NCBI RefSeq assembly: GCF_004001245.1
Contig: NZ_AP018724.1
Location: forward strand, 1,170,501 to 1,234,500
Length of the DNA stretch: 64,000 nucleotides
Reading direction: 5' to 3'
Source of the DNA: Sulfurivermis fontis
GTDB lineage: Bacteria > Pseudomonadota > Gammaproteobacteria > Thiohalomonadales > Thiohalomonadaceae
The notes under the pieces are model-generated. The model worked only from the letters and a program-made list of their open reading frames with translations. It did not search any database and was not told where the DNA came from. Shown here piece after piece: positions 11,572 to 49,416 of this stretch (positions are counted from its first letter, which is position 1; every line of letters starts with the position of its first letter). Position numbers and translations under genes: made by a program.

Positions 11572-11580
11572 GAAAGGCAG

Positions 11581-11608
11581 TTTCAAGTTTCAAGTTTCAA
11601 GTTTCAAG
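11581..11608. repeat. Heptamer tandem repeat, TTTCAAG x4
   Basis: Four exact head-to-tail copies of TTTCAAG directly between the palindromic regulatory sites and the 45-copy CTTGYCA array. It is the same heptamer family (TNNCAAG) as the large array but in the opposite orientation, so the two could pair. Confidence 0.9.
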
Positions 11609-11625
11609 AAAGACCAACAATCCTC

Positions 11626-11940
11626 CTTGCCACTTGCCACTTGCCACTTGCCACTTGCCACTTGTCACTTGCCACTTGCCACTTGCCACTTGCCACTTGC
11701 CACTTGCCACTTGTCACTTGTCACTTGTCACTTGTCACTTGTCACTTGTCACTTGTCACTTGTCACTTGTCACTTGCCACTTGCCACTTGCCACTTGCCA
11801 CTTGTCACTTGTCACTTGCCACTTGCCACTTGCCACTTGTCACTTGCCACTTGTCACTTGTCACTTGTCACTTGTCACTTGTCACTTGTCACTTGTCACT
11901 TGCCACTTGCCACTTGTCACTTGCCACTTGCCACTTGTCA
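11626..11940. repeat. 45-copy heptamer tandem array (CTTGCCA / CTTGTCA)
   Basis: Exactly 315 bp made of 45 heptamers with no other substitution or indel: 23 CTTGCCA and 22 CTTGTCA units, the variants grouped in runs (for instance one run of nine CTTGTCA). The last unit supplies the stop codon of the PilZ gene at 11938. Because 7 is not a multiple of 3, all three plus frames read as the same meaningless peptide cycle (LATCHLP-type), which is not taken as coding. Such arrays usually vary in copy number between strains. Confidence 0.95.
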
Positions 11941-12696
11941 CTGGTCTTTTCTGACCTTGCGGCGCTCCAACTCGACGCGGTGGATGTAGCGCAGGATGGC
12001 GGCGTTGCTGCGGGAGTCCAGGCCCAGCAGGCGGCAGCCGATGCGGTAGAGCGGGGTGCCGTCCCGGCTGTCCACCTGATAGCGGTTGCGGATCTCGATG
12101 TCGGCGTGGATCACCCCTTCCTCGGGCAGTTCGATGCGGCAGCCCGGCACGATGCTGCCGGGTTCCCAGCCGCACTGCCGTCCTTCCGGCGGTTCGATGA
12201 TGCCGACGCCGCCGACGCTGATATCGACGATGTGTGCCGAGATCGTGCCGCCATCAGGCGTGGCAAGGCTGATATTGAGGTGGCGGCCGATGGGGGTGGC
12301 GAGGCGGTAGTACTCGCGCCGCTGGATGCGGATGATGGAGGCGGGCAGGGGGATGACGAAGGCCGGCGCGCCCTGGAAGGTCGCTTTCTGGATGGACTCG
12401 CTGGTGAACTGGACCCGCACCTGGTTGTGGCGGGTGACGAACAGGATGCGGCGGGCCGCGAGCAGGCGCTGGTTGAGGCTGTCGTCCGGTCCGTAGTCCA
12501 GCACCAGGCGATTGTGCTCCTCGTCGAGGCGCAGGATGGTGGTGAGGATGAAGTCGCTGCCCTCGTTGAAATAGGCCGTGACCAACTGCAGCCCGCGCGC
12601 CAGATCGCCCAGCACGCGGAGGATTTCCATGCGGGAATCGACCCGGTAGCGTTCCGGGTCGATGGCTCCATCGTTGGTCATGTCATCGGCGCTCAT
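11938..12696 (-). CDS. YcgR-like PilZ domain protein, copy 1
   Basis: 252 residues: a YcgR-type N domain (about 15-115) followed by a PilZ domain (about 120-240). The c-di-GMP contacts are visible: RREYYR supplies the R-x3-R motif and DISVGGVG the D-x-S-x2-G motif. Family members bind c-di-GMP and act as flagellar brakes or effectors of surface behaviour; the partner here is unknown. The stop codon is made by the last unit of the heptamer array, so the final residues may have been altered by array growth. It is followed upstream by a close paralogue with a 38-nt gap, likely one operon. Confidence 0.85.
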   Translation of the reverse strand: MSADDMTNDGAIDPERYRVDSRMEILRVLGDLARGLQLVTAYFNEGSDFILTTILRLDEEHNRLVLDYGPDDSLNQRLLAARRILFVTRHNQVRVQFTSESIQKATFQGAPAFVIPLPASIIRIQRREYYRLATPIGRHLNISLATPDGGTISAHIVDISVGGVGIIEPPEGRQCGWEPGSIVPGCRIELPEEGVIHADIEIRNRYQVDSRDGTPLYRIGCRLLGLDSRSNAAILRYIHRVELERRKVRKDQ

Positions 12697-19891: not shown

Positions 19892-19901
19892 CAAAGGCAC
19901 G

Positions 19902-19972
19902 CCCCTCCCGGCCTCCCCCACGGTGTGGGGGAGGAGGGAAAACTCCCTCCCCGGGGAGGGTTGGGGAGGGGG
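19902..19972. repeat. GC-rich double palindrome, single copy
   Basis: One complete unit of the element amplified at 23.3 and 48.2 kb: CTCCCCCACGGTGTGGGGGAG hairpin (19914-19934, shown shortened in meaning) then ACTCCCTCCCC/GGGGAGGGTT hairpin and a GGGGAGGGGG tail. It ends 1 bp before the nitroreductase stop codon. This isolated copy shows the basic unit of about 70 bp. Confidence 0.85.
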
Positions 19973-20845: not shown

Positions 20846-21610
20846 TCAACCCATCTGCTTTTCGCGGATTTCATCCAGCGTCTTGCAGTCGATGCACAGG
20901 GTGGCGGTGGGACGCGCCTCCAGGCGGCGGATGCCGATCTCCACGCCGCAGGACTCGCAGTAGCCGTATTCGTCCTTGTCCAGCTTGTCCAGAGCCTCGT
21001 CGATCTTCTTGATCAGCTTGCGCTCGCGGTCACGGGTGCGCAGCTCCATGGTGAATTCGGATTCCTGCGTGGCGCGGTCGTTGGGGTCGGGGAAGTTGGC
21101 CGCCTCGTCCTGCATGTGATGCACGGTGCGGTCCACTTCTTCCATCAGTTCACGCTTCCAGGCGCGCAGGATGTCGCGGAAGTGATCCTTCATGGCATCA
21201 CTCATGTACTCCTCGCCCTTCTTCTCCTTGTAGGGGGTGAAGCCGCCGAAGCCCTCGGCGGAGGAGGTGGATTTCTCGGCCGCCGCGGCGGTCTTGCTGG
21301 CTGCGCTGCTCTTCATGGATGGGGTGCTTTTCTTGCTCGTTGTCGTTTTGGGTTCGGGGGCTTGCTTGGCCGCTTCAGTCTTTTTCGGCGCAGCGGGCTT
21401 TTTCTCGGCGACAGCTTTCTTGGCAGCAACGGGTTTTTTTGCCGCCGCGGGCTTCTTCTCGGCCGCAGCCTTCTTCGCCGGAGCAGGTTTCTTTTCCGGC
21501 GCGGCTTTCTTCGGCGCAGGCGCCTTCTTGGCCGGGGCCGCCTTCTTGGCAGTCGTCGCTTTCTTCGCGGGTGCGGTGGCCTTTTTGGCCGGCGCTTTCT
21601 TTGTCGGCAT
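20846..21610 (-). CDS. dksA: RNA polymerase-binding factor DksA with long Lys/Ala-rich N-tail
   Basis: 254 residues from the ATG at 21610 (AGGAG 8 nt upstream). The C half (about 125-254) is a full DksA: a coiled-coil region with [11 protein letters not shown], then the zinc finger CESC-x17-CIDC. It binds the RNA polymerase secondary channel and works with ppGpp. The first about 120 residues are unlike E. coli DksA (151 residues in total): repeats of AKK, PAKK and AAEKKPA, rich in Lys, Ala and Pro, similar in style to histone H1 or AlgP tails and probably disordered and DNA- or RNA-binding. Repetitive coding makes this region likely to vary in length. Confidence 0.92.
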
Positions 21611-21797
21611 ACGCCTGTCTCCTGACTGAGCGCAAAAACAAGCCGGCATAAATACCAGAAAGGGTTCCCACCTGCAACCAAGGCAACGCGGCCATGGAGG
21701 GCGGGGGATGACCGATGGGCGATGTCGGGTTTATTTTCTCCCGGGCTCAGGTAAGCTATGCGGCCCCTCCGGAAAACAGCGATACCACAGGAACCCC

Positions 21798-22562: not shown

Positions 22563-22572
22563 CAACGGGCCG

Positions 22573-22596
22573 TAGGAGCGAATCGTATTCGCGATA
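22573..22596. repeat. REP-like palindrome, type B (GTAGGAGCGAATCGTATTCG)
   Basis: GCGAATCGTATTCGC is a hairpin-forming core in the gap between cbbY and the aminotransferase. A relative lies at about 28399-28420. Confidence 0.7.
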
Positions 22597-22636
22597 TGAT
22601 CCCTGACCGAAACTGAACCCAGGGAATCCCCGCCCC

Positions 22637-24358
22637 ATGACCGACACCCGCACACCCCGTCTCGCCCACCGCATGGCGGAAATCGAGTCCTTCCAGGTCA
22701 TGGACCTGCTGGCCCGCGCCCGCGAGCTGGAAGGGCTGGGGCGCGACATCGTCCACATGGAGATCGGCGAGCCGGACTTCCCGACGCCCGAGCCCATCAC
22801 CGCCGCCGCCCGGCGCGCCCTGGCCGAGGGCAAGACCCACTACACCCCGGCCCTGGGCCTGCCGGCCCTGCGCGAGGCCGTCGCCGGTTTCTACCGGCAG
22901 CGCTACGGCGTCGCTGTTTCCCCGGAGCGTATCGTCATCACCCCCGGCGCCTCCGGCGCTCTGCTGCTGGCCCTCGGCGTGCTGCTCAATCCGGGTGAGA
23001 AGGTGCTGCTGGCCGACCCGGGCTACCCCTGCAACCGCCACTTCGTGCGTTTCCTCGACGGCGCGGCACAGTCGGTGCCGGTCGATGCCGACACCGCCTG
23101 GCAACTGGCGCCGCGCCATATCGAACAGCACTGGGACAGCCAGACCGTCGCCGCCATGGTCGCCAGCCCCTCCAATCCCACCGGCACCCTGCTGGGGCGC
23201 GACGAACTGGCCGCCCTGGCCCGGGCCGTGGCGGAGCGGGGCGGTACCCTCATCGCCGACGAGATCTACCACGGCCTGACCTACCCCCTCCCGGCCTCCC
23301 CCACGAAGGTGGGGGAGGAGGTGGGCAGGCTCCCTCCCCATTCGATGGGGAGGGTTGGGGAGGGGGGCTGCGACAGGCACCCCCTCCCGGCCTCCCCCAC
23401 GAAGGTGGGGGAGGAGGACAGGCTCCCTCCCCATTCGATGGGGAGGGTTGGGGAGGGGGGCTGCGACAGGCACCCCCTCCCGGCCTCCCCCACGAAGGTG
23501 GGGGAGGAGGACAGGCTCCCTCCCCATTCGATGGGGAGGGTTGGGGAGGGGGGCTGCGACAGGCACCCCCTCCCGGCCTCCCCCACGAAGGTGGGGGAGG
23601 AGGGCAGGCTCCCTCCCCATTTGATGGGGAGGGTTGGGGAGGGGGGCTGCGACAGGCACCCCCTCCCGGTCTCCCCCACGAAGGTGGGTGAGGAGGTGGG
23701 CAGGCTCCCTCCCCATTTGATGGGGAGGGTTGGGGAGGGGGGCTGCGACAGGCACCCCCTCCCGGCCTCCCCCACGAAGGTGGGGGAGGAGAAATCTCCC
23801 TCCCCCTCGCAGGGGGAGGGCCGGGGAGGGGGCAACCGCGCCGCCTCCGCCCTGGAAGTGGCTGCGGATGCCTTCGTCATCAACAGCTTCTCCAAGTACT
23901 TCCAGATGACCGGCTGGCGCCTGGGCTGGCTGGTGGTGCCGGAGGGCTACGTGCGCGAAGTAGAAAAGCTGGCGCAGAACCTGTTCATCGCCCCGTCCAC
24001 CCCGGCCCAGTACGCCGCCCTGGCGGCCTTCAGCGACGAGACCCTGGCCATCCTCGAGGCGCGCCGCGCCGAGTTCCAGCGCCGCCGCGACTACCTCCTG
24101 CCGGCCCTGCGCGCACTGGGCTTCGACATCCCGCTGGTCCCGCAGGGCGCCTTCTATATATACGCCGACTGCAGCCGTCTCGCGGCGGACAGCCGGCAGT
24201 TCAGCCGCGACCTGCTGGAGCAGGCCGGCGTGGCCGTCACCCCCGGTGCGGATTTCGGCCGCCACCATCCCGAACGCTACCTGCGCTTTGCCTACACCAC
24301 CGACCTGTCCCGCCTGGAAGAGGGCGTCGAACGAATCCGTCGTTTCCTCGGTCACTGA
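22637..24358 (+). CDS. PLP-dependent class I/II aminotransferase with in-frame repeat insertion
   Basis: 573 residues, where relatives have about 390. The N part shows the fold-type I start (HMEIGEPDFPTP, about 41-52; SNPTG near 180; DEIYHG at 208-213, giving PLP contacts D208 and Y211). The catalytic lysine is K420 in NSFSKYFQMTGWRLG. In normal enzymes D and K are about 35 residues apart; here 212. The extra about 184 residues (217-400) are encoded by six palindromic repeat units (see 23285-23836), all in frame with no stop. The insertion point is a surface loop just after DEIYHG. The reading frame is intact end to end, so it is either a functional enzyme with a repeat loop or a recently interrupted gene. 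Substrate unknown. Confidence 0.8.
   Translation: MTDTRTPRLAHRMAEIESFQVMDLLARARELEGLGRDIVHMEIGEPDFPTPEPITAAARRALAEGKTHYTPALGLPALREAVAGFYRQRYGVAVSPERIVITPGASGALLLALGVLLNPGEKVLLADPGYPCNRHFVRFLDGAAQSVPVDADTAWQLAPRHIEQHWDSQTVAAMVASPSNPTGTLLGRDELAALARAVAERGGTLIADEIYHGLTYPLPASPTKVGEEVGRLPPHSMGRVGEGGCDRHPLPASPTKVGEEDRLPPHSMGRVGEGGCDRHPLPASPTKVGEEDRLPPHSMGRVGEGGCDRHPLPASPTKVGEEGRLPPHLMGRVGEGGCDRHPLPVSPTKVGEEVGRLPPHLMGRVGEGGCDRHPLPASPTKVGEEKSPSPSQGEGRGGGNRAASALEVAADAFVINSFSKYFQMTGWRLGWLVVPEGYVREVEKLAQNLFIAPSTPAQYAALAAFSDETLAILEARRAEFQRRRDYLLPALRALGFDIPLVPQGAFYIYADCSRLAADSRQFSRDLLEQAGVAVTPGADFGRHHPERYLRFAYTTDLSRLEEGVERIRRFLGH
23285..23836. repeat. Six GC-rich double-palindrome units inside the aminotransferase gene
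   Basis: Units of 93 or 96 bp, each a CTCCCCCACGAAGGTGGGGGAG-type hairpin followed by CTCCCTCCCCAT/ATGGGGAGGG and a GGCTGCGACAGGCACC linker. Units 1-5 are near-identical; unit 6 is divergent (CTCCCCCTCGCAGGGGGAGGG). Unit lengths are multiples of three, keeping the host frame; the translation cycles as PLPASPTKVGEE...GRVGEGGCDRH. It is the same family as the 48.2-49.4 kb array, with AAGGTG in place of GGTGTG in the loop. Confidence 0.92.
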
Positions 24359-27059: not shown

Positions 27060-27134
27060 GAACTCATCTCAAAACACTCCCTCCCCACTTTGTGGGGAGG
27101 GCTGGGGAGGGGGCAGGAGCGGCTCCGCCGCGAT
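27060..27134. repeat. 75-bp direct repeat, left copy
   Basis: Starts GAACTCATCTCAAAACACTC, contains the CCCACTTTGTGGGGAGGG palindrome and ends in the type C REP GGAGCGGCTCCGCCGCGAT. It matches 27559-27633 at 72 of 75 positions, 499 bp apart. The two copies bracket the nucleotidyltransferase gene and its truncated partner. Confidence 0.9.
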
Positions 27135-27558: not shown

Positions 27559-27633
27559 GAACCCATCTCAAAACACTCCCGCCCCACTTTGTGGGGAGGG
27601 TTGGGGAGGGGGCAGGAGCGGCTCCGCCGCGAT
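27559..27633. repeat. 75-bp direct repeat, right copy
   Basis: Second copy of the 27060-27134 repeat, 3 mismatches. Each copy is preceded by a GCTCTGNCGGGCGATNCGGC REP (about 26990-27009 and 27531-27551), so the repeated block is longer than 75 bp when gaps are allowed. Confidence 0.9.
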
Positions 27634-48239: not shown

Positions 48240-49416
48240 CAGCCTCCCCCGCGGAGCGGGGGAGGGGGAAACACTCCCTCCCAATTCGATGATGGGGCTT
48301 GTTGGGGTGGGGAGCTGCGACGGGCGCCCCCTCCCGGCCTCCCCCACGGTGTGGGGGAGGAGGGTATTCCCCCTCCCGGCCTCCCCCACGGTGTGGGGGA
48401 GGAGGGTATTCCCCCTCCCGGCCTCCCCCACGGGTGTGGGGGAGGAGGGTATTTCCCCTCCCGGCCTCCCCCACGGTGTGGGGGAGGTGGGAAAACTCCC
48501 TCCCCATAGGATGGGGAGGGTTGGGGTGGGGGGCTGCGACGGGCGCCCCCTCCCGGCCTCCCCCACGGTGTGGGGGAGGAGGGTATCCCCCCTCCCGGCC
48601 TCCCCCACGGTGTGGGGGAGGAGGGTATTCCCCCTCCCGGCCTCCCCCACGGGTGTGGGGGAGGAGTGTATTTCCCCTCCCGGCCTCCCCCACGGTGTGG
48701 GGGAGGTGGGAAAACTCCCTCCCCATAGGATGGGGAGGGTTGGGGTGGGGGGCTGCGACGGGCGCCCCCTCCCGGCCTCCCCCACGGTGTGGGGGAGGAG
48801 AACATCCCCCCTCCCGGCCTCCCCCACGGTGTGGGGGAGGAGAACATCCCCCCTCCCGGCCTCCCCCACGGTGTGGGGGAGGAGAACATCCCCCCTCCCG
48901 GCCTCCCCCACGGTGTGGGGGAGGAGGGCATTTTCCCTCCCGGCCTCTCCCACGGGTGTGGGGGAGGAGGGTATTCCCCCTCCCGGCCTCCCCCACGGTG
49001 TGGGGGAGGTGGGAAAACTCCCTCCCCATAGGATGGGGAGGGTTGGGGTGGGGGGCTGCGACGGGCGCCCCCTCCCGGCCTCCCCCACGGTGTGGGGGAG
49101 GAGGGTATCCCCCCTCCCGGCCTCCCCCACTGGTGTGGGGGAGGAGGGTATTCCCCCTCCCGGCCTCCCCCACGGTGTGGGGGAGGAGGGTATTCCCCCT
49201 CCCGGCCTCCCCCACGGTGTGGGGGAGGAGGGAAAACTCCCTCCCCATGGGATGGGGAGGGTTGGGGAGGGGGGCTGCGACGGGCGCCCCCTCCCGGCCT
49301 CCCCCACGGTGTGGGGGAGGAGGGTATCCCCCCTCCCGGCCTCACCCACTGGTGTGGGGGAGGAGGGTATTCCCCCTCCCGGCCTCCCCCACGGTGTGGG
49401 GGAGGTGGGAAAACGC
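48240..49416. repeat. Array of 21 GC-rich double palindromes in five higher-order blocks
   Basis: About 21 hairpin units of the form CTCCCCCACGGTGTGGGGGAG joined by GAGGGTATTCCCC or similar linkers. They are grouped in five blocks (about 4, 4, 6, 4 and 3 units); the first four close with GGGAAAACTCCCTCCCCATAG-type hairpin and GGGGGGCTGCGACGGGCGCC, the last ends before it. A divergent first unit is at 48240-48325. The array is open in all three minus frames and two plus frames for over 1 kb. It separates tatT from dctP. Block-level identity implies recent duplication. Confidence 0.93.

Follow-up and report, generated by a model that had tools for sequence, protein, structure and literature searches.

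How does a gene for a PLP-dependent aminotransferase come to carry a long block of palindromic repeats between its catalytic motifs, and does the enzyme survive it? The question is raised by a gene at positions 22637–24358 (plus strand) of the window, i.e., the 64,000-nucleotide stretch of the Sulfurivermis fontis chromosome that was analyzed here.

The interrupted aminotransferase gene

The gene encodes a class I/II, PLP-dependent aminotransferase of the PRK08960 family, with the Pfam domain Aminotran_1_2 and orthologues across Gammaproteobacteria. Its open reading frame, free of internal stops, is 573 amino acids long with the block and 391 without it, in agreement with the roughly 390 residues that had been expected. 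The PRK08960 model NF006514 matches the protein with 636 bits, exceeding the curated cut-off of 554, in two stretches of which the best spans residues 8–221, and the PLP-binding residues are present. D208 and Y211 on one side of the block and K420 on the other, between which the initial annotation had placed it, are all invariant in the 46 orthologues compared. Together with a tandem array detected by TRF, the open frame and the PRK08960 match bear out the claim that a palindromic block lies in frame inside a PLP aminotransferase.

Structure of the palindromic insert

Alignment with the empty orthologue of one congener (G017) and the short one of another (G016) delimits the insert to positions 23285–23830 on the plus strand (546 nt, 182 amino acids), between Tyr216 and the native Gly-Asn-Arg-Ala-Ala-Ser. 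An in-frame insert had been recognized from the start, but its proposed size of 552 nt (23285–23836, about 184 residues) was too long because two codons, GGC and AAC, align with native sequence. The insert comprises six composite palindromic units of 96, 93, 93, 93, 96, and 78 bp, with twelve hairpins; the earlier count of six units therefore stands, and five have the lengths of 93 or 96 bp given for them, but the last is shorter. TRF delineates a 93-bp tandem array at 23283–23832 with 93% matches. The A hairpins (CCCCCTCCCGGCCTCCCCCACGAAGGTGGGGGAGG) are spaced 96, 93, 93, 93, and 96 bp from start to start, and each is followed by an inverted B hairpin. Unit 1 (23284–23379, 96 bp) contains the A hairpin at 23284–23321, the inverted B hairpin at 23333–23366, and the spacer GGCTGCGACAGGCA; units 2 (23380–23472), 3 (23473–23565), and 4 (23566–23658) measure 93 bp each, unit 5 (23659–23754) measures 96 bp, and the terminal unit 6 (23755–23832, 78 bp) has a B hairpin unlike the others (23799–23832, GGGGGAGGGCCGGGGAGGGGG), all on the plus strand.

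The reported absence of stop codons holds for the reading frame of the gene, but the other two plus-strand frames of the actual block hold stops (two and one, respectively). The 93-bp consensus unit has no stop in any of its six frames, yet shuffles of it leave all six open with a probability of 0.04–0.18, so this openness is largely compositional, and at such rates (4–18%) it was dropped as a selected property. Two long minus-strand reading frames, of 626 and 204 amino acids, were likewise set aside as products of composition and repeat structure.

The palindrome family in the genome

As had been supposed, the palindrome belongs to a dispersed and amplifying family. In S. fontis, its strict motif occurs 61 times, distributed over about 22 sites, compared with seven for a reversed control pattern, an excess well beyond chance; G016 has 11 copies, G017 has 4, and a further congener, G014, has 5. 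In the rest of the bacterial family, a related palindrome form was detected only in the two genomes of one genus; the family scan covered 20 genomes, and an order-wide scan covered no others. The copies are nearly all intergenic, often directly 3' of a stop codon, and just two of the 22 sites are intragenic with relatives available for comparison, namely those in the aminotransferase gene and in a comF-like gene. With an assumed coding fraction of 0.88, this is an extreme depletion from genes. Inverted A(+)/B(−) pairs with conserved spacing occur in the aminotransferase gene and at several other loci. In the window itself, further copies include an intergenic A hairpin at 19901–19937 (plus strand), B-type hairpins at 27080–27113 and, with one mismatch, at 27579–27612 (both minus strand), and an intergenic tandem array at 48327–49405 (plus strand) of 21 A hairpins with B hairpins interspersed.

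That array advances in steps of 42, 43, and 92 bp, 9 of 20 of which are not multiples of three, and a second intergenic array of the family in steps of 93 and 94 bp, whereas the A spacings in the aminotransferase gene are all multiples of three, a pattern that supports but does not prove constraint, since repeat copies are non-independent.

When each unit was read with 12 nt on either side, a GTAG tag was present in 2 of 56 copies and a CGTC tag in 4 of 56. Judged by its sequence, the palindrome is an untagged REP-like/BIME-like element: it is dispersed, mostly intergenic, and arranged in inverted pairs, as REPs and BIMEs in the broad sense are, but it lacks the tag of the GTAG/CGTC superfamilies, and no cognate RAYT was found. 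Searches of Rfam with the block returned only sub-threshold, microRNA-type matches at chance level. Several apparent overlaps of the palindrome with genes were discarded, those at the N-termini of genes in L162, L177, and L064 as probable misplaced starts, and that with PhoU in L165 as a weak and probably fortuitous match.

Origin and history of the insert

Comparison of copy number among relatives, one of the checks proposed for this locus, reveals an empty site, a short decayed relic, and a long form within one genus. The site is empty in G017 (91% identity; LTY-GEHAVSALEV), while G016 (84–86% identity) has an in-frame insert at the same codon (LIY-PKVMGEERPLPASPTNVGEGRGG-GSRATSALEV), the insert lengths being 546 nt in S. 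fontis, 69 nt in G016, and 0 in G017, and both inserts being divisible by three. No insert was seen in the other members of the family whose loop is readable. The spacing from DEIY to SFSK is 27–31 residues in 84 of 87 orthologues, with G016 and two genomes described below (L150 and L154) as the exceptions, and a class-wide draw of 134 genomes gave 55 matches (one of them stopped at a partial frame), in which the aligned matches carry no large insert here except that of S. fontis itself. Since G017 and almost every other orthologue have an empty site, the interpretation of the block as an insertion is upheld, and an ancestral 573-residue form, which had been named as a possible refutation, fails; on the alignments compared, the long form is not ancestral within the enzyme family.

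Nor does the block appear to be an assembly artefact, a reading that we consider exceedingly improbable. Assemblers can miscount GC-rich tandem repeats, but the chromosome of S. fontis JG42 (AP018724) is a complete circle of 3,246,214 bp assembled from PacBio RS II reads (PMC6397845), and a block of some 550 bp, far below long-read size, is unlikely to be miscalled in such an assembly. The independent assembly of G016 has the relic at the same site.

The two inserts share unusual details. Of all loci read, the aminotransferase copies alone have A hairpins with a CGAA(G/C) loop, and the 3' arm of the G016 insert (GGGGGAGGGTCGGGGAGGGGG) is closer to its counterpart in terminal unit 6 than to those in units 1–5 (ATGGGGAGGGTTGGGGAGGGGG). 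These features therefore argue for common ancestry of both inserts, and the match of its 3' end to the relic makes unit 6 probably the original insertion. In addition, the codons CGC GCC downstream of the insert are common to S. fontis and G016, against G017. We consider it most likely that the insertion predates the three Sulfurivermis species, later expanding in S. fontis and disappearing from one lineage; the 93-bp multiplication would then be a later local event than the insertion itself.

The order of the species bears on an alternative, namely that S. fontis and G016 acquired insertions independently at one codon, through target preference or loop tolerance, and that G017 never had one. 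Most neighboring genes show S. fontis to be more similar to G017 than to G016 (94.7 vs. 90.9% for the largest gene), DksA being the exception (97.0% for G017 and 97.8% for G016), and the aminotransferase tree joins S. fontis with G017 with a support of 95/50, i.e., with a weak SH-aLRT value. With this order, ((S. fontis, G017), G016), independent insertion needs no loss, and the betaproteobacterial case, in which an unrelated palindrome occupies this codon, demonstrates that same-site insertion does happen independently. Exact removal from G017 is a more complex history than a second insertion, and the argument for it draws on short sequence matches. However, independent insertion leaves a hairpin loop that is common to both inserts and found in no other copy read, a G016 3' arm that matches unit 6, and downstream codons that S. 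fontis and G016 share against G017. We therefore judge it unlikely, if still the strongest competitor of a single insertion before the species diverged.

Under a single early insertion, an untagged REP-like palindrome, in the form of an inverted A-B pair of the BIME type, would have entered a surface loop of a housekeeping aminotransferase in frame before the species diverged. In S. fontis, the A-B pair would then have multiplied as a 93-bp composite unit, through strand slippage during replication or through unequal recombination, and only changes by multiples of three would have survived. The G016 insert may have shrunk through deletion between repeats, and the G017 insert may have disappeared or given way to an empty allele. 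Ribosomes would read through the block in the PLPxSP...GEE frame, adding about 180 disordered residues as a loop outside an otherwise normal PLP fold. Taken as a whole, this explanation (insertion before the species split, in-frame amplification in S. fontis, and a translated loop on a most likely working enzyme) is one that we hold with good, though not complete, confidence.

Other in-frame insertions

The same loop has been hit elsewhere. L154 (E2_concoct.bin.75) and L150 (Hydrogenophilales nzgw566) have inserts unrelated to that of S. fontis after the same tyrosine codon. Their family, a betaproteobacterial clade, includes five genomes with an in-frame insert of 21–31 residues there (loci L194, L195, L197, L198, and L200, at several stages of decay). 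G153 and G209 retain an intact hairpin, and that of G167, G220, and G152 has decayed; the close relatives G211, G222, and G232 are empty. Since G211 is sister to G153 (support 99/91), gain or loss in this clade must have been recent. Palindromes of the betaproteobacterial type are common in those genomes, with 8–67 per genome.

Other genes are affected as well. The comF-like gene of S. fontis (L005:1260–2066, equivalent to G000:C1:211657–212463) has ten extra in-frame residues (PLPLPSSPARGGGEPHV) in its zinc-ribbon region, which derive from one palindrome and are absent in four congeners (G014–G017). A dnaE2-like gene of G016 (L171:2–2083, minus strand, on G016:C59) has two paired palindromes, in frame, within its PHP domain; at the same place, G018 is shorter by about 25 residues, and G019 has a different insert with a GTAG-type REP, named by eye, on the other strand. 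The reading phase PLP...GEG is common to four independent cases of the CCC(C)TC type. In another genome (G175:C137:4007–4621), an aminotransferase match is split by 87 nt elsewhere in the gene with the frame open, possibly another in-frame insertion.

Different palindromes have entered the aminotransferase loop of two distant lineages and, likewise, the dnaE2 loop of two genera, so that some surface loops might be recurrent landing pads, in which unrelated intergenic palindromes insert in frame, amplify, turn into ordinary protein sequence as they decay, or leave cleanly. We offer this as a tentative idea, somewhat more doubtful than probable. If true, landing pads would give free-living bacteria a lasting way to turn selfish intergenic DNA into new protein loops.

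Selection and function of the interrupted gene

Purifying selection continues on both halves of the interrupted gene, with no sign of relaxation. Between S. fontis and G017, dN/dS (NG86) is 0.15–0.20 on each side of the insert, and the codon changes unique to one branch number 28 synonymous and 7 nonsynonymous in S. fontis, compared with 20 and 11 in the empty G017. These counts, together with the in-frame state of the insert in two Sulfurivermis genomes, agree with the earlier suggestion that translation of the block is tolerated. The interrupted enzyme is most likely functional, because the loop appears to tolerate extra sequence, as in the betaproteobacterial clade, where an unrelated in-frame palindrome at this codon has been kept even as its hairpin erodes.

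Structure prediction of the loop, another check proposed initially, is consistent with this. AlphaFold2, run on a supplied alignment with 45 orthologues, which tends to give back the family fold, assigned the enzyme pLDDT values mostly above 90, and residues 223–398 values below 50 with the exception of residue 248; the best PDB matches of the predicted model are aminotransferases (TM-score 0.93–0.96 by target length). The protein is thus predicted to have a normal PLP fold with the insert as a disordered loop. The RNA of the block has a folding energy of −423 kcal/mol (z = −11.6), far outside chance expectation, and the insert could therefore depress expression.

This very stable RNA would also suit a young pseudogene or split gene, in which the hairpins halt transcription or translation and the frame stays open by chance, the palindrome being poor in stop codons; with a consensus unit that is stop-free in all frames, the open frame alone is weak evidence of coding. 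Nevertheless, the S. fontis branch has no excess of nonsynonymous changes, the catalytic residues are all retained, the A spacings are all divisible by three, and the beta clade keeps in-frame inserts across five genomes. Moreover, the gene has no close paralogue in the S. fontis genome, where the next best match is about 29% identical. We consider decay into a pseudogene quite unlikely. Conversely, the repeat peptide might have been domesticated, i.e., retained for a new binding or regulatory property, as could be imagined from the low proportion of nonsynonymous changes on the branch and from the beta clade, which keeps its insert long after the palindrome has decayed. This seems to us more improbable still: the insert is predicted to be disordered, is wholly different between lineages, and is lost in close relatives, and tolerance accounts for the data without added function. 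A tolerated, translated loop on a most likely working enzyme remains our preferred reading.

Relation to known palindromic elements

Most known examples of in-frame palindromes come from obligate intracellular bacteria, in which selection is relaxed. S. fontis is a free-living sulfur oxidizer with a very long translated palindrome in a single-copy metabolic enzyme. The classic precedent is the Rickettsia RPEs (cited in PMC3733652), to which the initial annotation had likened the block; the parallel holds as an analogy, in that palindromes are translated in frame within apparently functional host genes. However, the S. fontis element is probably not an RPE: it has neither a GTAG tag nor the CGTC tag of RPE-4 and RPE-6 (PMC3733652). 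It also appears to differ in sequence, is mostly intergenic, and is tandemly amplified in a gene.

Closer in kind are the intragenic REPs of the GTAG and CGTC superfamilies, which a 2013 survey reported from several species (PMC3733652). Like the palindrome described here, they are short, mostly intergenic, arranged in inverted pairs, and sometimes in frame in genes; they have been reported from dnaE2 and, in two Xanthomonas species, from the same site of recB. The present insert is similarly in a coding gene, has a length divisible by three, and is absent in relatives. It differs in being untagged, in its host, a metabolic enzyme, and in its length of 182 residues, as translated REP clusters in the survey reach 82 residues at most. 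BIMEs of Escherichia coli and others resemble the insert in their alternating A/B hairpins, conserved linkers, and tandem composite units, but are by definition intergenic REP mosaics, whereas the S. fontis array is translated.

In-frame intragenic REPs as such are thus already known (Rickettsia RPEs; PMC3733652), while the length relative to that survey, the untagged family, and repeated insertion into the same loop with amplification, decay, and loss are new; no report of this enzyme or of a landing-pad pattern was found in the open-licence papers searched. Because a single genus holds the empty site, the decayed relic, and the amplified array, it becomes possible to test directly how a translated selfish element arises, grows, decays, and disappears, and the same-codon betaproteobacterial parallel makes loop tolerance separable from target preference.

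Y1 transposases and other repeats

Dispersed paired palindromes and Y1 transposase genes in the same genome also recall REPIN/RAYT systems. In those systems, however, the cognate RAYT is flanked by the same palindrome, while no such gene was found here: both Y1 genes of S. fontis and those read in congeners are without this palindrome on their flanks, where the repeats are GTAGGAGCGGA... REPs or GGGGTCAG... inverted repeats. Since these flanking repeats differ from the palindrome, mobilization by a RAYT is unsupported, even though two Y1 genes exist with repeats within a few kb. The S. fontis Y1 genes (L160:3100–5050 and L161:3500–4700) have GGGGTCAG... inverted repeats at their bounds and flanking duplications, a different mobile type.

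A GTAG-type REP of a different palindrome family (GTAGGAGCGAATCGTATTCGCGATAT, 22572–22597, plus strand) lies just upstream of the aminotransferase gene; REPs of this family also border RAYT genes in G016 and G017. Directly between the HAD phosphatase gene and the aminotransferase gene, G017 has a Y1 transposase gene (L170:9717–10244) with GTAG REPs on its flanks, an interval in which S. fontis has the single GTAG REP only. Elsewhere in the window, 45 copies of the 7-bp tandem repeat CTTGCCA occupy positions 11626–11942 and are adjoined by AGTTTCA repeats at 11579–11608, and a DksA-like protein encoded at 20846–21649 (minus strand) has an N-terminal Lys/Ala/Pro repeat tail of about 150 residues.
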